A stretch of DNA of 51,549 nucleotides from a virus: IMG/VR virus record IMGVR_UViG_3300020430_000022, positions 1 through 51,549 of that record; one strand, written 5' to 3'. Below, one piece after another: positions 6,320 to 44,082 of the stretch. Positions within the stretch are counted from its first letter, which is position 1. Each line of letters begins with the position of its first letter. The notes beneath the pieces were generated by a model that was not told the origin of the DNA, did no database searches, and saw only the letters and a list, made by a program, of their open reading frames with translations. Position numbers and translations under genes: made by a program.

Positions 6320-7528
6320 ATGGATGTAACAAAACTCACTGAGAAACCTATCGATCAACTTAGTAGAGAAGAGGCAGAGCTGCTTGTAGACCACTACAAG
6401 CAGTTATCTGCTAAATATACAGCTTATGAACAAGCTGTTAAATTAACTCTTAACTCTATCTATGGTGCATTCGGTAATAAATGGTTTCACTTTTTCAATA
6501 TTGACATCGCAGAGTCTATTACGAAGCAGGGTAAAAATGCTATCTTGTATTCTGAGACTATCCTGAATAAGTATGTGCAAGAGTTTTGGCACAAAGACAC
6601 AAAAGTACACGAGCAATTTGGATTAACTGTTAAAGGTAAAGTTGAAAAGCCTGCAGTAATCTATATTGACACAGACTCGTGTTACGTACAGTTCCAAGAT
6701 CTGTATGAGACTATCGTTTGGAATGATGAGTCTAAGGCTCTACCACTCGATGAGTTTATCCTAGCATTCTATGCATTTAGATTGAAGGACTACATTAGAG
6801 CGTGTATGCAGAAGTATGCAGACACCAGAAACACAGACAACTTCCTAGTATTCGAGCTTGAGTCTCTAGCCTACAATGGTATTTGGATGAGCAAAAAGAA
6901 GTATATTCAAAACATTGCTTGGGATGACAAACTAGAAGTTACTGATAGACATAAGTCTTTAAAGAAAGTAAAGACTATCGGATTCGATACTATTCAATCT
7001 TCTACGCCAAAATTCGCCCGCGAAAAACTGGTAGAAGCGCTTAGAATTCTTTTTAAATCTCAAAAAACCCCCGGTGCTGAAGAGCTACAGGAACTAGTAA
7101 GTTTTATGAAGAAGTCTAAGAAAGAATTTCAATTAGCAGACATTGATGACATCTCATTTAATCGTAGAACTAATAACATTGAGAAGTATATTGTCGACGA
7201 TCAAATCGAATTCCAAGTGGGACTAAAATGTCCAGCTAACGTAAAAGCAGCAGGCTATTACAACTATGTGCTTAATCAAAATAAGAAGTACAAAAACAAA
7301 TATAAAGTAATCGGTAACGGTGAGAAGCTAAAAATCTATAACTGTAAAACTCCGATTTCAGAAGTATACGCTTATCTACCAGGTGAACATCCATACGAAA
7401 TTGCACCTCAAGTAGATTTCGATACTCAGTTTGAAAAATGTATGATCGATCCACTCAACAGAGTTTTAAAAGCAATCGGTCTACAGACACTAGACACTAA
7501 CCTGATCTACGCATCAGCTTTATTTTAA
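6320..7528 (+). CDS. 43B: DNA polymerase family B, C-terminal half (gp43B): palm motifs B and C, thumb
   Basis: This 402-residue protein carries what gp43A lacks: polymerase motif B, KLTLNSIYGAFGN (residues 41-53), and motif C, YIDTDSCYVQF, with the catalytic DTDS at 117-120. The thumb region follows. The C-terminus NLIYASALF is short and hydrophobic, as expected for a clamp-binding tail. The first 35 residues, including an acidic REEAELLVDHYKQLSAKY helix, may rebuild the fingers with the tail of gp43A. It starts one base after the clamp gene, with a good ATG in an A-rich context. Both halves look intact, which argues for a working two-subunit enzyme rather than a pseudogene. Confidence 0.92.
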   Translation: MDVTKLTEKPIDQLSREEAELLVDHYKQLSAKYTAYEQAVKLTLNSIYGAFGNKWFHFFNIDIAESITKQGKNAILYSETILNKYVQEFWHKDTKVHEQFGLTVKGKVEKPAVIYIDTDSCYVQFQDLYETIVWNDESKALPLDEFILAFYAFRLKDYIRACMQKYADTRNTDNFLVFELESLAYNGIWMSKKKYIQNIAWDDKLEVTDRHKSLKKVKTIGFDTIQSSTPKFAREKLVEALRILFKSQKTPGAEELQELVSFMKKSKKEFQLADIDDISFNRRTNNIEKYIVDDQIEFQVGLKCPANVKAAGYYNYVLNQNKKYKNKYKVIGNGEKLKIYNCKTPISEVYAYLPGEHPYEIAPQVDFDTQFEKCMIDPLNRVLKAIGLQTLDTNLIYASALF

Positions 7529-20983: not shown

Positions 20984-23470
20984 ATGGCAAAATTAAACGA
21001 CTTATTGATCGTCGAAATGTCTTCATCTCAGTTGAGCGTTGCTTCAAATGAGAATAAGGACTACATTCTAGAAGGTATCTTTGGAGAAATTGACTCCAAG
21101 AATAAAAATAATCGTATCTATACTGAAGATGAGTATGTTCCTCAGATTCAGCAACTACAAGATAAGATTAAATCTTCCAAACTGTTAGGTGAATTAGATC
21201 ACCCACAGCAGTTTGATGTATCTTTAAAGAATGTATCTCATATTATTGAAGAATTATACTACGACAAAGAAAACAAACAAGTAAAGGGTAAAATCAGATT
21301 ATTAGATACTGATGCTGGTAGACAAGCTAAAGCTCTTGTTGATGCAGGTGTACCTTTACAAATCTCTTCTAGAGCAGCTGGTGCTGTTGAATCTAACGGT
21401 AAAGTAAAAATCAAGCAATTATTTACTTATGACCTAGTAGCAGACCCTGGCTTTGCTAACGCCGAGTTAAAGAGAGTAAACGAGTCTTATGGCTTTGACA
21501 ATGAGTCAGGTCTATGGATCTACGAGATGAACGGCGAGGGCGCAGAAGCTCCTGAAGTAGCACAAGAAATTACAGAAACCAATATTGAAACAAATAATAA
21601 TAAAAACATGGCAGAATTTGTAAAGGCTGAAGATTTCCACAAGTATTCTGAGTACTTAGCGAATGAAATTAAGTCAATTAAAGAGTCTATCGGAGCTAAC
21701 AGCGAAGATAACACGTTAGAGAACGTAAAGTCTCATAACGATCACATCGTCGAGCGCGTTAATACTCTCTCAGAATACGTAGAGTATTTAGCCGGCAAAT
21801 TAGACGAATCAATCCAGTATTCAGAGCACGTTGCTGAGAAAGCAGATCAAGGTATTTCTTACAGCGAATCTATTGCTGAAAAATTAGATCAAGGTATTCA
21901 ATACTCTGAGCATTTAGCTGAGGCTGTTGGTAAAGTTAAAGACTTTGCTAACTATTTAGCTGAGCAGCACAATGAAGGTACTGAAACTGCTAAGAATCTT
22001 TTAGGTTACGTTGAGTATTTAAAAGAAAACTTACAGTCTGTATCTGAGTATGCTGAATATATTGCAACATCTATCAACGAAGGTATGGTAAAAGAGGAAG
22101 AAGTTGAAGAAACTGAAGAAGTTGAAGAAACTGAAGAAGTTGAAGAAACTGAAGAAACTCCAGAAGTTACTGAAGAAGAAACTCCAGAAACTAACGAAGA
22201 AGAAACTACTAACGAAGAGGAAGTAGAAGAAACTGAAGAAGTAGCTGAAGAAGACGAAGCTGGCGAAGGTGCTGAAGAAGTAGTCGAAGACGAAGTTACT
22301 GAGGAAGAAGTTGAAGAAACTGAAGAGGTTGCTGAAACTGAAGAAACTAACGAAGAAGACGAAGCTGGCGAAGGCGCAGAAGAAGTAGTCGAAGATGAGG
22401 TAACTGAAGAAGAAGTTGAAGAAACTGAAGAAGTTGCTGAAGAAGATGAGGCTGGTGAAGGTGCTGAAGAAGTAGTTGAAGACGAAGTTACTGAAGAAGA
22501 AGCAGAAGAAGTTGCTGAAGAAGATGAGGCTGGTGAAGGTGCTGAAGAAGTAGTTGAAGACGAAACTAACGAAGAAGACGAAGCTGGTGAAGGTGCTGAA
22601 GAAGTAGTTGAAGACGAAGTTACTGAAGAAGAAAGCGAAGAAGTTGCTGAAACTGAAGAAACTAACGAAGAAGACGAAGTCGAAGAAGGTAATGCATTCG
22701 GAGCTGCAAGAGCTGAAGCTATCGCTAAAGGTGAAGATAAATTCAAAGTAGGTGATGAAGAGTATGATGTTGAAGGCGTTGACGCTGACGACAAAGAAAA
22801 TGCTGAAGAATATGCTGAAGAAGAAGGTATCAAAACTGAAAAAGAAGAAGTTACTGAAGAAGACGAAGCTGGCGAAGGCGCAGAAGAAGTAGTCGAAGAC
22901 GAAGTTACTGAAGAAGACGAAGAAGTTGAAGAATCTGCTTTAGATACTTACAAAAAAGAAATTTCATCTAAGTTAGACGCTCTAGTTGAAGCTGCACAAG
23001 CTAAAGAAAATGAAAATCCATCATTCTTTAAGGTTGTATCTAGCTCAACACAAGAGAAATACAACGCTCTAAACGAAGATGCTAAAACTGAAGTTAGACA
23101 AAGAGTTGCTAAAAGAGGTTTTATGACTGAAGGCGAAATCAACGCAATCGTTGAATCTGCTGAAGCAGTTGTAGAAGCTAAAACAGCTGAACCATTCTTT
23201 ATCACTGCAGCTCCTGCAGAGTACAAAGAGAAGTTTGAAGCTCTAACTGAAGGAAAACAAAATCAAATCAAAGCTCAAGCTAAATACCATACTCTAAACA
23301 CTGAGTATCAAGTTAGAAACTTCTGGGAAACTAGAGATCTAAGAGAGGTAAAAGTTGACCTAGAAAAATTAGCGGCAGTTAACGAATCAGCAGCGACTGA
23401 GAAGAAAGACGAGCCACTATATGATGTGTCTAACTACGCTGAGAGCTTAAAGAAAAGATTTAAAAAGTAA
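20984..23470 (+). CDS. 21-22: prohead protease gp21 fused to scaffold gp22
   Basis: An 828-residue fusion. Residues 1-208 match the T4 prohead protease gp21 (212 aa, family S77): KNNRIYTEDE, GELDHPQ with likely catalytic H73, LQISSRAAGAV with likely Ser128 or Ser129, and YDLVADPGF (D150). From M209 onward it looks like a scaffold: helical repeats such as YSEHVAEKADQGIQYSE, then a very acidic stretch (about 372-650) containing six copies of an EDEAGEGAEEVVEDE unit, and a C-terminal helical domain. Just before M209 the DNA reads AATAATAATAAAAACATGG, which looks like a normal start context, so gp22 may also start there at 21608. The frame stays open across the junction. Confidence 0.85.
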   Translation: MAKLNDLLIVEMSSSQLSVASNENKDYILEGIFGEIDSKNKNNRIYTEDEYVPQIQQLQDKIKSSKLLGELDHPQQFDVSLKNVSHIIEELYYDKENKQVKGKIRLLDTDAGRQAKALVDAGVPLQISSRAAGAVESNGKVKIKQLFTYDLVADPGFANAELKRVNESYGFDNESGLWIYEMNGEGAEAPEVAQEITETNIETNNNKNMAEFVKAEDFHKYSEYLANEIKSIKESIGANSEDNTLENVKSHNDHIVERVNTLSEYVEYLAGKLDESIQYSEHVAEKADQGISYSESIAEKLDQGIQYSEHLAEAVGKVKDFANYLAEQHNEGTETAKNLLGYVEYLKENLQSVSEYAEYIATSINEGMVKEEEVEETEEVEETEEVEETEETPEVTEEETPETNEEETTNEEEVEETEEVAEEDEAGEGAEEVVEDEVTEEEVEETEEVAETEETNEEDEAGEGAEEVVEDEVTEEEVEETEEVAEEDEAGEGAEEVVEDEVTEEEAEEVAEEDEAGEGAEEVVEDETNEEDEAGEGAEEVVEDEVTEEESEEVAETEETNEEDEVEEGNAFGAARAEAIAKGEDKFKVGDEEYDVEGVDADDKENAEEYAEEEGIKTEKEEVTEEDEAGEGAEEVVEDEVTEEDEEVEESALDTYKKEISSKLDALVEAAQAKENENPSFFKVVSSSTQEKYNALNEDAKTEVRQRVAKRGFMTEGEINAIVESAEAVVEAKTAEPFFITAAPAEYKEKFEALTEGKQNQIKAQAKYHTLNTEYQVRNFWETRDLREVKVDLEKLAAVNESAATEKKDEPLYDVSNYAESLKKRFKK
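21608..23470 (+). CDS. 22: possible internal start: separate scaffold protein gp22 (620 aa)
   Basis: An in-frame ATG (codon 209 of the fusion) follows an A/T-only leader like those of neighbouring genes and begins MAEFVKAEDFHKYSEYLANE. Translation from here would give free scaffold in excess over protease, the ratio that T4 achieves with two genes. This is inference, and the alternative is that only the fusion is made and self-cleaved. Confidence 0.4.
   Translation: MAEFVKAEDFHKYSEYLANEIKSIKESIGANSEDNTLENVKSHNDHIVERVNTLSEYVEYLAGKLDESIQYSEHVAEKADQGISYSESIAEKLDQGIQYSEHLAEAVGKVKDFANYLAEQHNEGTETAKNLLGYVEYLKENLQSVSEYAEYIATSINEGMVKEEEVEETEEVEETEEVEETEETPEVTEEETPETNEEETTNEEEVEETEEVAEEDEAGEGAEEVVEDEVTEEEVEETEEVAETEETNEEDEAGEGAEEVVEDEVTEEEVEETEEVAEEDEAGEGAEEVVEDEVTEEEAEEVAEEDEAGEGAEEVVEDETNEEDEAGEGAEEVVEDEVTEEESEEVAETEETNEEDEVEEGNAFGAARAEAIAKGEDKFKVGDEEYDVEGVDADDKENAEEYAEEEGIKTEKEEVTEEDEAGEGAEEVVEDEVTEEDEEVEESALDTYKKEISSKLDALVEAAQAKENENPSFFKVVSSSTQEKYNALNEDAKTEVRQRVAKRGFMTEGEINAIVESAEAVVEAKTAEPFFITAAPAEYKEKFEALTEGKQNQIKAQAKYHTLNTEYQVRNFWETRDLREVKVDLEKLAAVNESAATEKKDEPLYDVSNYAESLKKRFKK
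22099..22930 (+). repeat. acidic repeat region coding Glu/Val/Thr-rich units
   Basis: Degenerate tandem repeats built from GAAGAAGTT, GAAACT and GACGAAGCTGG-type units encode VEETEE and EDEAGEGAEEVVEDE blocks. The long block recurs six times. A short non-repetitive module (NAFGAARAEAIAKGEDKF, near 22692) interrupts it before the last copy. It is coding low complexity, not a CRISPR array. Confidence 0.9.
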
Positions 23471-38514: not shown

Positions 38515-38733
38515 ATGAGTGATAAACTAACAAAGAAGCTCCAAGTTTTACTGACCGAAGATGAAGTTCGTGAAGTGAACAGAGTTATTTTGAACGATGC
38601 ACTCGAGGCTGAGCAAAGACCCATCTCGGTAAGTGCGTTTATTAGAAATTTAATTAAAGAAGAGCTCGATAAAAGAAGCGTCGAGCAAAGATCCTACATT
38701 AAACAAAATCTTAAAAACCTAAAAGAAAAATAA
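38515..38733 (+). CDS. small protein, possible ribbon-helix-helix DNA-binding type
   Basis: A 72-residue charged protein. KLQVLLTEDEVREVNRVIL followed by SVSAFIRNLIKEELDKR resembles the strand-helix-helix arrangement of MetJ/Arc/CopG proteins (xxVxLTxxE...VSxFIRxxI). Such proteins repress or organise transcription. It sits after a terminator and directly before the gp26-like gene, 1 nt apart. The fold call is tentative. Confidence 0.5.
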   Translation: MSDKLTKKLQVLLTEDEVREVNRVILNDALEAEQRPISVSAFIRNLIKEELDKRSVEQRSYIKQNLKNLKEK

Positions 38734-38734
38734 T

Positions 38735-39739
38735 ATGAGCGAAGACAAAAACAAACTTAGCGCAGAGGAAGCTAAGATGGCAAAAGCTTTAGAAGCTAAA
38801 GATAGCATCAATAATCCTCAAGTAGAATCTACAGATACAGAAGCAGAAGATATGGAAGCTGCTGTAGCTGCAGGTGGTTTAGGTAGAGTTAATATGGCTA
38901 ATTTCGGGCCAGACAGAGCACAGTCTTCTGATAGTGCATTAGGTTGGCACGTATTAGACCAAGAACAACTACCTTCAAAAGGTAAGTTTTATCCAGCTGG
39001 TTGTGTAATTAAAATCAGATCTGCGAAAGCAGCTGAGATTAGACACTTCTCAACGATGGATGAGAATAACTATATCGACATGGAAGAGAAGTTAAACTCA
39101 ATCGTTGAGTCTTGTATGCAAATGACAGCTAACAACAAGAGACTTTCTTACAAAGATCTACTTGAAGAGGATAGAATTATTGTTCTACTTAGTGTGAGAG
39201 ATTTAACTTTCCCAGAACCTGAAAACAAACTTGTTTTAAAGGGTAAAACTGAGCAGACTAAAAAGCCAGTTGATATTGAATTATCAACTAGAAATTTAGT
39301 ACCAACAGTAATTGACGAAGAGATTGAAAAGTACTACGACGAAACTGCCAGAACTTATGTGATTAAAACACGTTCTGCTGGTGAAGTTAGAATGCACCCA
39401 CCAACAATCGGTGTTATGCAAGAAGTAACTAACTATCTTAGAGATCGTCAAGAAAAAGATGTAGAATTCGATAAAGCATTTATTCAAGTCCTACCTTATG
39501 TTCAATCTGACTGGAGAGCATTAGGCCTAAATAAAATCTTTCAATTAGAGATTGATTACAAAGGTTGGGATGAGAAAAAGTTTATGGTAATCTACAGATT
39601 AGCTGAAAGAATGAGAATTGGTGTTCAAGCAACACTAGAAACTACCTTTGAAGGAGAGAAGGCAACAGCCCCTCTTGAGTTCCCAGGTGGCATCAAAAGT
39701 CTTTTCATTATTTCAGATCTCGCTGGAGAATTACTTTAA
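38735..39739 (+). CDS. 26: baseplate hub / tail assembly protein gp26-like (T4 baseplate family PF12322)
   Basis: A 334-residue protein (T4 gp26 is 208). The family pattern is QLPSKGKFYPAG, SAKAAEIRHFSTMDENNYID, LLEEDRIIVLLSVRDLTFPE and the C-terminal SLFIISDLAGELL. The acidic first 60 residues are extra. Its stop sits in the context CTT TAA G, and an open +1 frame with a tail-assembly-like sequence continues without a gap (see next entry). In this position, after sheath and tube and before a tape-measure-like gene, other phages encode frameshifted tail assembly chaperones, so this protein may serve as one. Confidence 0.8.
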   Translation: MSEDKNKLSAEEAKMAKALEAKDSINNPQVESTDTEAEDMEAAVAAGGLGRVNMANFGPDRAQSSDSALGWHVLDQEQLPSKGKFYPAGCVIKIRSAKAAEIRHFSTMDENNYIDMEEKLNSIVESCMQMTANNKRLSYKDLLEEDRIIVLLSVRDLTFPEPENKLVLKGKTEQTKKPVDIELSTRNLVPTVIDEEIEKYYDETARTYVIKTRSAGEVRMHPPTIGVMQEVTNYLRDRQEKDVEFDKAFIQVLPYVQSDWRALGLNKIFQLEIDYKGWDEKKFMVIYRLAERMRIGVQATLETTFEGEKATAPLEFPGGIKSLFIISDLAGELL

Positions 39740-39986
39740 GACTAAGTTCTACCTGGGCATACATCTCAGGATGCAACCATCGGAGATTGAGAACATGTAC
39801 TACTATGAATATTGGTACTACGTTAAGAATCTCTCGGATTACATCAAAGAGAAGAACAAACAAACTAAGGACCAACAAGAACAGGCGAACGAGAGACAGA
39901 GCTCAATGAGTTCTAAATATAAAACGCCAAAGATGCCTAAGGTCCCTACAATGAGGACACCGACATTAAAGATGCCGAAGTTGTAG
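39738..39986 (+). CDS. C-terminal extension read by possible +1 frameshift from gp26 (gp51-like / chaperone T domain)
   Basis: The +1 frame is open from inside gp26 to 39986. From the gp26 stop it encodes KTKFYLGIHLRMQPSEIENM and then YYYEYWYYVKNLSDYI, ending in a basic Pro/Met-rich tail (KMPKVPTMRTPTLKMPKL). The protein-like sequence begins before the first reasonable ATG (39771), and the only in-frame ATG further upstream (39648) lies deep in gp26 and would add shadow-like sequence. This favours a frameshift at CTT TAA (slip to TTT). Coupled reinitiation at 39771, giving 71 aa, is the alternative. Confidence 0.5.
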   Translation, partial: KTKFYLGIHLRMQPSEIENMYYYEYWYYVKNLSDYIKEKNKQTKDQQEQANERQSSMSSKYKTPKMPKVPTMRTPTLKMPKL

Positions 39987-39988
39987 TA

Positions 39989-39997
39989 GATATATAA
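39989..39997 (+). promoter_or_regulatory. late promoter motif GATATATAA of the tape-measure gene
   Basis: It lies 64 nt before the GTG at 40062, with a GC-rich hairpin in the leader between them. Confidence 0.7.
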
Positions 39998-40006
39998 TAT
40001 AGTATA

Positions 40007-40038
40007 GGGGTATGTTCCCAAAAGCATACCCCTTACTT
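40007..40038 (+). terminator. hairpin in the tape-measure leader (terminator or attenuator)
   Basis: Eight perfect pairs, GGGGTATG/CATACCCC (40007-40014 with 40025-40032), 10-nt loop, followed by TTACTTTT. It lies downstream of the promoter motif at 39989 but upstream of the gene, so it may end upstream transcripts or shape the new 5' end. Confidence 0.55.
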
Positions 40039-40061: not shown

Positions 40062-43000
40062 GTGAATTTCAAATTTCTACAAAGTGCTTTTGATAAGTTA
40101 GGTGGACAAACAGGTCTACTAGAAGAAATAAGAGACAATACAGAACAAACCGCGGTAGCATTAAATCCAGGCGGTGAATTATTCGATCGTATGGATCGAC
40201 TAGTTCAGGCTATGGAAAACTTAGAATCAGCTGCTGCTGGTGGAAAAGGAGGTTTACAGCAAGCTATTCTTTTAAAACTAGTTTCTCCAACACTTAAACC
40301 TATCGGTCTAGGTTTAGGTTTCATCGTTGACGCTTTAGAGAAAGCAGGTCCTGGAAAGGAACTTGCTGAAAAAATGGATGCCTTAACAAAAGGCCTAGTT
40401 TTACTGGGTGACGTAGGAGCATCTATTCTTAAATTTGCAGGATATATGATTCTAGCAACTCCACTGTTATTAGTAGCAGCGGTTGCTTCTATTATATGGG
40501 TACCAGCAACTATATTGATGATAAAAGGTCTGATGTATGCAACTGAAGGCCTAGACGAAGAGAGAATGAAGAAAATCGTTCTGCTAGGTGATGTAGGTGC
40601 GTCAATACTTAAACTAGCAGGTTCATTAGCTCTAGTAGCTCTGTTAGCTATTCCAGCTCTAGTTGGTCTATTAGCAACTACAGTTATATTAGTAGGTATT
40701 GCAGGCGTATTTAAAATCTTAGACATGATTGGTGCAGATCCTAAGAGAATGGAAAACTTCGGTGATTCTATTAAATCATTAGGTCTTGGTCTGCTACTAC
40801 TATCAGGTACTTTAGCACTTATTTCAATAGTGGCAATGCCAGTTCTAAAAGGACTTGCGGTTGCTATGGCAGTTATTGCGGGTATTGGCTTAACCTTCTT
40901 TTTATTAGATAAATTAGGTGTAGATAAATCTATGCGAACCATGTCGCTTAGCCTAATGTTAGTATCTTTATCTATAGTTACGTTAGCAACAGCATTAGCA
41001 CTAGCTGATATTTTAATGCCACCTTTAGAAAGAACATTAGAAATTGGAGCAATTATCGGTGGAACTGCAATAGTATTTGCATTAGCTGGTCTGCTTAAAA
41101 CTCAAATTGTACAAGGTGCTCTGGTTATGGCGTTAGCAGGTATATCTCTAGTTGTAATCGGATTTGGTTTACAAATGATTGAGAAAGCCCTGCCAGATAA
41201 AGACAGATGGGAATTCATAGGTCAAGTTGGTGCAATCGTTGGCGGTCTTGGTGTTGCTATGGCTCTAGCCGGTGCGGGTGCAGCGTTCATCGCAGCTGGT
41301 GCTGGTGTAATGATTCTAGCAGGTGGTGCTCTAGTTGTAATAGGTTTAGGTTTAAAAACAATCGCATCAGTAGACTTTGCTACACTAGGCGCTCTATCTA
41401 ATGGTAAAGGTAATAAACCATTTGATTGGTCTGGTGAAGTTAGTGAAGGTTTCTTAGGTTTCGGCGCGGGTCGTAAGAAGACTAACTTTGAGGTTGCAAT
41501 GGAAGCAATAGCAGCGGGTATGGCATTAGGACCAGTATCAATTGCAGGTATTTTAGCTGGTGCACCAACATTAATTCTAGCTTCAACAGCCCTAGTTGGA
41601 ATTGCAGTTGGTTTAAGAACATTTAAAGCTGTAGTTGCAGAAGCAGATCTACCAAAATTATCAGATAATGTAAACTATATTGTAAGTGGTTTAGCAGATA
41701 CATTTGCACAAGTAGGTCAGAAATATCCAGGTGGAGGTGGTGGTATCATGTCAGCACTATTTGGTTCTGGCTCTGATACTTCAGTTGTAGCTCAGGGTAT
41801 CTCTGCTGTAAGTGGTATGGGTAGAGCACTAAAAGGTATTGCAAAAGGCGTTCAAGCAATGGCGGAACTAAAGTTCCCAACTGGTTTTGATAAAGATGGT
41901 AATCCAACAGGATATGAGACTATCAATCTAACAACCGCAGTTCCTGCATTAATTGCTAATACACAATTAATTGTTACAGGTTTAAGTAAGACATTCGCAG
42001 AAGTAGGAGAATCAGATGCTGCTCAAGGTAGTACATGGTTTACTTCATCATCTTATGAAAAAGGTATTAAGGTTGTTAAGAAAATGGGTGAACCTCTATA
42101 TAACTTAGCAAATGGAGTACAGAATATGGCGAACTTAAAGTTCCCAACAGGTTATGATAAAGATGGTAATCCAACTGGCTTTAAATCTATTGGTAATGTA
42201 GGTTCGTTAGTTAAAAAATTAACTAAGAATACAAAAGCTATTATTATTGGTTTAGCTGGTGTATTCGAAGAAGTTGGTAAATCAGATGCTGCAGATACAG
42301 GATGGTTTAGCAAGAATAATTTCGAGAAAGGTATATACGTTGCACAACAGCTAGCAGATCCTTATGAATCATTAGCAGATGCAGTACAATATGTAAATGA
42401 GATTACAAGCGGTCTTCAAGATGCACAAGAGGTTAAAGGTAAAGTTACTGCGATGATTTCTGCAATTACAGATGCGGGAGGCACAGATGCATCAGTATTA
42501 TCATCTAAAGCATATTTAATTAGAGTAATCGGAAGTACTTATGAAAAACTAAGTACTGCAATTCCAGCTATTGTATCTTCAATCGCTACATTTACAGTTG
42601 ATAAAGCAAAAGCATTTGCTGCTATCTTTGGTGGTGAATCTCCGGCTGAACTATTTGAATCTAAAACTAAGTTCTTGGGCGGTTTAACAGCATCTTATAT
42701 GAGAATGGCTATGGCTATTCCTCTGATTGTTGGTTCAATTAACTCAGTTCAAGCAGAACAATTAGATTCATTCACTGCAATCTACGGAGGTAAGATGACC
42801 GAGATTGAAACTATGACAGCTAGAGAAAGTTTATTCGTAGCTGTGGGTGATTCTTATGAGAAAGTGGGCAGAGCAGTACCTCAAATTACTTCAGCAATCT
42901 CTGGCGTGGATCCTGAAGCATTCGATAGATTTAAAGGACTATTCATCGGAAAGGTTGGTATGATAAGACCTATCGCAGGTTATGAAGCTCAAGCTGCACT

Positions 43001-43439
43001 TTGGGATGCAATCGGTAGAAATATGGGTGCAACTGCGACAGCATTCCCAACAATCGCTGAAGGTATTAATGCGATGGATCTGGCTAAGTTAACTGAAACT
43101 AGACAAATGTTTGAAGCACTTGCAGTTTTAGCCGAAGGTGGTGAATCTCCAGAAGATATTCTAGAAGCAATGGGTGAATCTCTATCGACTGCCTTAGAAA
43201 ATCTAACAGACATGATTGAGACGTTTAGAACTACTGTAGAAACTGGTAACGCTGAAACTGGTGGTATACTTGAGGGTGTTGCATCGACAGTTGGTGGAGC
43301 AGTTGGAGCATTTAGAGATGCAGTTACTGGTGGCGGTGGTGCAGGTGATAGCAGACAGGTTGTAACTGCAATTCAAAACCTACAAAGACAACTTCTGACA
43401 GTGGGTATTAAGTTAAAGAATCAAGATCTTTTCGGATAA
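40062..43439 (+). CDS. tape-measure-like tail protein (gp29 role)
   Basis: A 1125-residue, helical, Ala/Gly/Leu-rich protein, the longest gene in the window. Residues about 100-450 are strongly hydrophobic, with repeated transmembrane-like helices, and LLGDVGASILK occurs twice (near 130 and 180). Two copies of LKFPTG-DKDGNPTG (near residues 604 and 693) mark an internal duplication. Long hydrophobic helical proteins right after tail assembly chaperones are tape measures. It is about twice the length of T4 gp29 (590), which by the usual scaling of tail length with tape length suggests a long tail. It starts at GTG, and the nearby start context TAATCTAGTGAA is weak. Confidence 0.65.
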   Translation: MNFKFLQSAFDKLGGQTGLLEEIRDNTEQTAVALNPGGELFDRMDRLVQAMENLESAAAGGKGGLQQAILLKLVSPTLKPIGLGLGFIVDALEKAGPGKELAEKMDALTKGLVLLGDVGASILKFAGYMILATPLLLVAAVASIIWVPATILMIKGLMYATEGLDEERMKKIVLLGDVGASILKLAGSLALVALLAIPALVGLLATTVILVGIAGVFKILDMIGADPKRMENFGDSIKSLGLGLLLLSGTLALISIVAMPVLKGLAVAMAVIAGIGLTFFLLDKLGVDKSMRTMSLSLMLVSLSIVTLATALALADILMPPLERTLEIGAIIGGTAIVFALAGLLKTQIVQGALVMALAGISLVVIGFGLQMIEKALPDKDRWEFIGQVGAIVGGLGVAMALAGAGAAFIAAGAGVMILAGGALVVIGLGLKTIASVDFATLGALSNGKGNKPFDWSGEVSEGFLGFGAGRKKTNFEVAMEAIAAGMALGPVSIAGILAGAPTLILASTALVGIAVGLRTFKAVVAEADLPKLSDNVNYIVSGLADTFAQVGQKYPGGGGGIMSALFGSGSDTSVVAQGISAVSGMGRALKGIAKGVQAMAELKFPTGFDKDGNPTGYETINLTTAVPALIANTQLIVTGLSKTFAEVGESDAAQGSTWFTSSSYEKGIKVVKKMGEPLYNLANGVQNMANLKFPTGYDKDGNPTGFKSIGNVGSLVKKLTKNTKAIIIGLAGVFEEVGKSDAADTGWFSKNNFEKGIYVAQQLADPYESLADAVQYVNEITSGLQDAQEVKGKVTAMISAITDAGGTDASVLSSKAYLIRVIGSTYEKLSTAIPAIVSSIATFTVDKAKAFAAIFGGESPAELFESKTKFLGGLTASYMRMAMAIPLIVGSINSVQAEQLDSFTAIYGGKMTEIETMTARESLFVAVGDSYEKVGRAVPQITSAISGVDPEAFDRFKGLFIGKVGMIRPIAGYEAQAALWDAIGRNMGATATAFPTIAEGINAMDLAKLTETRQMFEALAVLAEGGESPEDILEAMGESLSTALENLTDMIETFRTTVETGNAETGGILEGVASTVGGAVGAFRDAVTGGGGAGDSRQVVTAIQNLQRQLLTVGIKLKNQDLFG

Positions 43440-43793: not shown

Positions 43794-43879
<86 letters not shown>

Positions 43880-43890
43880 AAACTTAAAAT

Positions 43891-44082
43891 ATGAAAGTAT
43901 TTAAAAGAAGCGTAAAGCGTAGAAAATTATTTGGTGTATGTGGTGGTTTAGCAGCATACACTGGAACAGATCCTCTTCTTTGGAGGTTCGCAGCAGTTGT
44001 TATGTTCTTATGGCCATACGTGCCAGCATTATTACTGTATTTATTTTTAACCTTTTTAACAGAAGAAGATGCCGACATTTAA
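43891..44082 (+). CDS. PspC-domain membrane protein
   Basis: A 63-residue protein directly after the tRNA. The first half, [20 protein letters not shown], is the PspC signature (PF04024), followed by one or two transmembrane helices ([28 protein letters not shown]). In bacteria PspC senses envelope stress and regulates the phage-shock response. A phage copy may act at the inner membrane during infection, but that is inference. It overlaps the next gene by 14 nt. Confidence 0.8.

Follow-up and report, generated by a model that had tools for sequence, protein, structure and literature searches.

The question raised by this locus is how a protein-coding frame lying directly behind a tail gene, in the +1 frame relative to it, is expressed. 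The window, that is, the whole stretch of viral DNA that was analysed (51,549 nt, IMG/VR record IMGVR_UViG_3300020430_000022), contains a 0-frame ORF of 334 aa resembling T4 gp26 at 38735-39739 on the + strand. Its stop is the TAA at 39737-39739 and its 3' end reads GAA TTA CTT TAA G, as originally predicted. Past this stop the +1 frame is open for 82 codons, reading KTKFYLGIHLRMQPSEIENM... to 39986, and its protein-like sequence is conserved in relatives. The original prediction joined the two frames by a prfB-like +1 slip at CTT TAA (39734-39739, + strand).

The order of genes is sheath, tube, a 72-aa ORF, the gp26-like ORF with its +1 extension, and a tape-measure-like ORF. Apart from the 72-aa ORF before the pair, this is the order that had been described. 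The tape-measure-like ORF (1125 aa, 40062-43439, + strand), which the pair directly precedes, was assigned by its length and place, and family searches with it gave no informative match. A terminator-like hairpin at 40006-40033 (+ strand) lies directly 3' of the +1 domain; 2 such hairpins were found and 1.1 were expected. The 72-aa ORF (38515-38733) has a weak ribbon-helix-helix match (E 0.06), and the interval between the tube gene and the gp26-like gene is an unusual location for a regulator. Immediately behind the tape measure region is a tRNA-Ser (anticodon TGA, 43794-43879), followed by a small ORF (43891-44082) with the look of a PspC-type membrane protein. Elsewhere in the window, an 828-aa ORF near the head genes (20984-23470) carries long acidic EVEETEEV repeats. 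On visual inspection of the translations, a DNA polymerase of family B is seemingly split into two ORFs ~4.5 kb apart (359-1765 and 6320-7528), with ribonucleotide reductase genes between them.

The two reading frames were examined for homology to known tail assembly chaperones (TACs). In T4, gp26 and gp51 both belong to phrog_150/PF12322, and gp51 additionally has phrog_634 at its C-terminus. The 0-frame protein of the window, TAC-N, matched phrog_36717 (E 6e-27) and on its own had no Pfam match. Its homology to PF12322 and phrog_150 was reached through relatives that match both families; one of these, L081, is 43% identical to TAC-N and exceeds the PF12322 cut-off (E 8e-7). A TAC-N profile aligned with T4 gp26/gp51 using hhalign at E 3e-4, and the alignment ended with GGIKSLF against GLKEFF. 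The AlphaFold model of TAC-N matched T4-like baseplate hub proteins in fold, and a fold search of the PDB with TAC-N found nothing. The +1 frame, TAC-C, matched phrog_634 with E 4.5e-8 when +1 residues upstream of the TAC-N stop were included and 2e-3 when they were left out; TAC-C of relative L115 matched at E 2e-6. Taken together, the family matches, the alignment with T4 and the fold match indicate a short and a long protein, TAC-N and TAC-NC. By homology, then, the locus is a T4 gp26/gp51-type TAC pair, and the family matches and gene order bear out the prediction that a short/long chaperone pair occupies the position of lambda G/GT. T4 likewise has TAC-N alone and TAC-N plus TAC-C, but it encodes them as two separate genes on opposite strands and uses no recoding.

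Near relatives were collected from IMG/VR. All 80 of them (68-90% identical) have the junction YTA CTT TAA GAC followed by the +1 peptide KTKFYLG[IV]HLRMQPSE, although 2 of the loci break off within it. Since the peptide is found in all 80, the +1 extension is not a chance open frame. A further 91 loci, which overlap the earlier sets and include some re-fetched contigs, have an intact +1 protein with the form LFKIS(L/H)LN(F/Y)YK; the counts of distinct sequences given below (104) come from separate tallies.

Several observations favour a slip at CTT TAA, in which a slowly read UAA would allow tRNA-Leu to shift from CUU to UUU, perhaps with the aid of a Shine-Dalgarno-like GGAGAA (39725-39730, + strand). 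Among the first 65 distinct relatives there are 40 conserved degenerate columns (residues that are conserved and have at least three synonymous codons), and CTT is the sole invariant codon. Every near relative, as well as L120, has CTT before TAA; Lak phages have TTT TAA and an open +1 frame of ~36 codons without a start; and prfB of Flavobacterium uses AGGAGGUAUCUU UGA C (PMC8710568). The wider relatives tell against the slip. In 104 distinct relatives the codon before TAA is CTT in 73, TTA in 29 and CTA in 2, and TAC-C is kept throughout. Endings such as CTT TTA TAA and CTT CTA TAA occur with the +1 protein intact, as does TTA TTA TAA in L219 and L220, which have no CTT at all. Thus the expectation that relatives keep CTT plus a stop at the junction holds for the near relatives and fails for 31/104 distinct relatives. 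GGAGAA is essentially confined to the window clade, in which GGA is nearly fixed; most of clade B has TCT TCT GAA. Across the relatives we found neither a conserved CUU-stop, nor a Shine-Dalgarno-like stretch 3 nt upstream, nor a frame beginning at the slip, as a prfB-type site would have. Outside the Lak group, the members listed always have twelve residues between the terminal codon and QPSE, with no shared start codon.

A second argument against CTT TAA is that selection already acts on the +1 protein before this site is reached. The +1 sequence is conserved as protein from ~10 codons before the stop, at SLFQISLENYF, and not right at the slip as had been claimed. Constraint is clear from ~39708 (LFQISLENYFKTKFYL...), and the TAC-C domain was delimited as 39708-39986 (+ strand), its TAG stop ending at 39986. 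On this evidence TAC-C already includes SLFQISLENYF, which lies upstream of the TAC-N stop. The upstream residues SLENYF are similar to T4-type TAC-C (LESYYKINF). In an AlphaFold model of the +1 frame, VFSLFQISLENYFKTKFYLGIH forms one helix that is unbroken across the stop position and continuous with TAC-C, whereas the 0-frame tail of TAC-N is predicted to be disordered, a contrast that we treat as supporting evidence only.

Substitutions were counted by the Fitch method on a tree of the 104 distinct relatives. On average, a codon of the gene body has undergone 6.0/3.2/13.7 changes at positions 1/2/3, as against 3.0/0.9/1.3 for one of the last ten codons. Third-position changes are therefore tenfold lower in the last ~10 codons, where first-position changes outnumber them. 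Blocks in which first-position changes exceed third-position changes occur only at the 3' end of TAC-N (Fisher p 1e-6, an indicative value, since the sequences are related). Because first positions of the 0 frame serve as third positions in +1, the substitution pattern is that of +1 coding. By this deduction the last ~30 nt of TAC-N are dual-coding, being read in both frames: the overlap at 39708-39739 (+ strand) would specify IISDLAGELL-stop in the 0 frame and LFQISLENYFK in the +1 frame. Third positions are still free to vary at codons -14 and -12 (counted back from the stop), and +1 coding therefore does not set in at a perfectly sharp boundary.

Dual coding also accounts for the fixed CTT TAA, since a Leu-stop is required in the 0 frame and Phe-Lys in the +1 frame. 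A +1 Phe demands that the Leu codon be CTT, and a +1 Tyr that it be TTA or CTA, so it is the overlapping frame that dictates the choice of codon. Joint positions were also scored with a T4-type TAC-NC profile. In the window, as in most of the relatives tested, the profile favoured joints upstream of codon -7 and placed one at CTT TAA ~5-11 bits below them; scores of L110 and L085 were too low to tell joints apart. When every joint position was scored, the profile disfavoured -1 to -4 and did not separate -24 to -7. The prfB-like slip, our initial working model with SLFIISDLAGELLK as its predicted joint peptide, was dropped because of the upstream +1 constraint, the TTA/CTA relatives and the Fitch pattern. 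From the sequences, then, a prfB-like slip at CTT TAA is probably wrong; we rate it as unlikely, and CTT TAA was judged not to be a required slip site.

The constraint at the 3' end of TAC-N might instead reflect an RNA signal, the +1 similarity before the stop being a relic. In keeping with this, codons -13 to -6 are wholly invariant in both frames within the window clade. In clade B, however, it is the first positions of the 0 frame, third positions in +1, that change, with the +1 residues preserved, and the TAC-C profile score rises when upstream +1 residues are included. Nor was a conserved RNA structure found around the joint (alifold ~ -0.7 kcal/mol); some clade B members have a stable downstream fold (z ~ -4) that is not common to the group. 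An RNA signal in place of a +1 protein is very hard to reconcile with these observations, and we give it hardly any weight. A stretch of ~90 nt around the joint (39668-39757) is nearly free of substitutions in the window clade, from codon -23 on. It reaches further upstream than dual coding explains, and it possibly holds a cis signal.

If +1 coding begins before the TAC-N stop, the ribosome would have to enter the +1 frame upstream of it. In L081 and L110 a stop closes the +1 frame immediately before codon -20, and +1 constraint is clear from codon -10. A frame closed upstream of -20 and constrained from -10 places frame entry within ~39677-39709 (+ strand), which comprises codons -20 to -10 (TTC CCA GGT GGC ATC AAA AGT CTT TTC ATT and the preceding codon). 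We therefore consider it likely that recoding to +1 inside this stretch yields the long TAC-NC, with a dual-coded end to TAC-N. In the proposed mechanism most ribosomes would stay in the 0 frame to the TAA at 39737 and make TAC-N, and a minority would enter +1 (equally -2) 10-20 codons before the stop to make TAC-NC containing SLFQISLENYFKTKFYLGIHLRMQPSEIENM.... By analogy with lambda G/GT (PMC5009743), coating of the tape measure protein would fall to TAC-N and recruitment of tube subunits to TAC-C. The occurrence of recoding, its exact site and its rate are what we infer from sequence comparison. The predicted recoding of the two TAC halves into one protein was thus upheld at this level, with its site moved upstream of CTT TAA.

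No single slippery motif at this place is conserved across clades A and B. The window clade has AAA AGT CTT TTC ATT, and clade B mostly AAR NNT YTN TTY RTT. In a simple scan for +1 or -2 re-pairing, AAR at codon -14, alone among codons -24 to -1, re-pairs in +1 in 100% of both clades. The corresponding AAA (39695-39697, + strand, next base A) is a candidate slip codon, though its fit was called weak and it also simply encodes a conserved Lys. A second candidate is CTT at 39701-39703 (+ strand, next base T), which is fixed in clade A and present in 6% of clade B. The predicted joint peptides are VFSLFQISLENYFK for a shift at AAA (39695), SLSLFQISLENYFK for a shift at CTT39701 and SLFSLFQISLENYFK for a -2 shift at TTC. 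Entry by -1 was rejected, as the -1 frame is unconserved and closes at variable points.

A hop would need no slippery codon. In TTC [ATTA] TTT (39704-39713, + strand), peptidyl-tRNA-Phe on the 0-frame UUY at 39704 could take off and land on the +1 UUY 7 nt further on, at 39711. TTY is present at both Phe places in 103/104 distinct relatives; in the exception, L115, the pair is 6 nt further apart. The predicted joint peptide is SLFQISLENYFK. We regard the hop as rather doubtful. If true, it would give the joint SLF-QIS, equivalent to SFF-RIS in phages that use a -1 shift.

TAC-C could also be a separate protein whose translation starts within or after TAC-N, through coupling, from ATG 39771, or from a weak codon, for example ATC 39717. 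A +1-frame ATG, GTG or TTG does lie near the joint in the distant relatives PTm1, LR756502, LR745206, LR756504 and pT24, in PAU the stop is followed by AAGGAG and ATG ATG, and MaF61 has ATGAGTAA, its own start after the joint. For the window, a start at ATG 39771 would remove >20 conserved residues, and reinitiation there was rejected as the main route because this ATG falls within conserved domain sequence and many of the relatives do not have it. In L081 and L110 the open +1 stretch that precedes the TAC-C domain contains neither ATG, GTG nor TTG, which agrees with the prediction of a +1 frame lacking a usual start codon, and L102 and L115 have no usual start at a shared place. Moreover, known TAC-C domains function fused to TAC-N (T4 gp51, lambda GT). 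A search among relatives for a start of the downstream frame, a point on which the original prediction could have fallen, thus found one in some distant relatives (PTm1, MaF61, PAU, LR756502) and none serving the window's clade. A separately started TAC-C seems improbable here; judging by their +1 start codons, it is possible in those distant relatives.

In distant relatives TAC-C is also in the +1 frame wherever it can be recognised. Lak phages have TTT TAA T, and 28 codons separate this stop from TAC-C, which no start codon precedes; a slip at the stop is plausible there from the sequence. In Lak L120, L087, L088 and L238-L240 a +1-frame segment of 28-48 aa separates the TAC-C core from the TAC-N stop. 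In Lak-B the segment connecting TAC-N and TAC-C contains an in-frame TAG that would need to be read as an amino acid. MA9V, which grows on Chryseobacterium, has CTT ATT TAA; the family of its hosts is without the prfB shift (PMC8710568), a single case only. A search of IMG/VR based on MA9V found no relatives. Hosts of the named relatives are Prevotella, Tenacibaculum, Flavobacterium and Chryseobacterium, and PAU is listed for Sphingomonas. We infer a Bacteroidota host for the window phage.

The proposed arrangement was compared with known systems. The TACs of P-SSM2, HTVC008M and KVP40 have the same two domains (phrog_150 and phrog_634) as the window pair, and in all three, which were checked, T TTT TTY is followed by TAC-C in the -1 frame. 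In the window the frame of TAC-C is instead +1, its overlap with TAC-N is ~30 nt, and a T TTT TTY heptamer is absent; consistent with this, TAC-C is +1 rather than behind an X XXY YYZ -1 heptamer in every relative of the group where it was recognised. The joint nevertheless falls at the same place in the protein, SFF|RIS in the -1 T4-like phages and SLF..QIS in the window. The inferred recoding place coincides with the -1 site (T TTT TTC) of cyanophage-type T4-like phages, and the homology of TAC-N to T4 gp26 stops at GGIKSLF, the joint of that site. Two publications describe poly-T -1 signals in TAC-N genes of T4-like phages (PMC12846349, citing Vladimirov et al. 2022) and, in some T4-like phages, a short gene plus a fused long gene (PMC10885494). 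Lambda G/GT and P2 E/E' also place a short and a long chaperone before the tape measure gene, a likeness of arrangement, but they use -1 slips (PMC5009743). A tail-chaperone shift in the same direction, +1, has been proposed for HSTV-2, a haloarchaeal myovirus of a different virus group (PMC5009743). The prfB site, CUU UGA C, shares with the window the CUU before the stop and, in the window clade only, a GGAG-like upstream stretch; it differs in having UGA instead of UAA, and in the wider relatives of the window neither the Shine-Dalgarno-like stretch nor CUU is conserved. In the named relatives examined, the long TAC form has no joined-gene annotation. Members with +1 TACs among T4-like phages may already be mentioned in Vladimirov et al. 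2022.

These results carry a warning that an invariant CTT-stop can stem from overlapping coding and not from a slip site. They also suggest that one T4-like tail-chaperone pair has found three solutions: a -1 shift, two genes, and +1 recoding with dual-coded ends. Because the joint is at the same protein position in both frameshifted forms, the switch in direction of the frameshift would be directly studiable.
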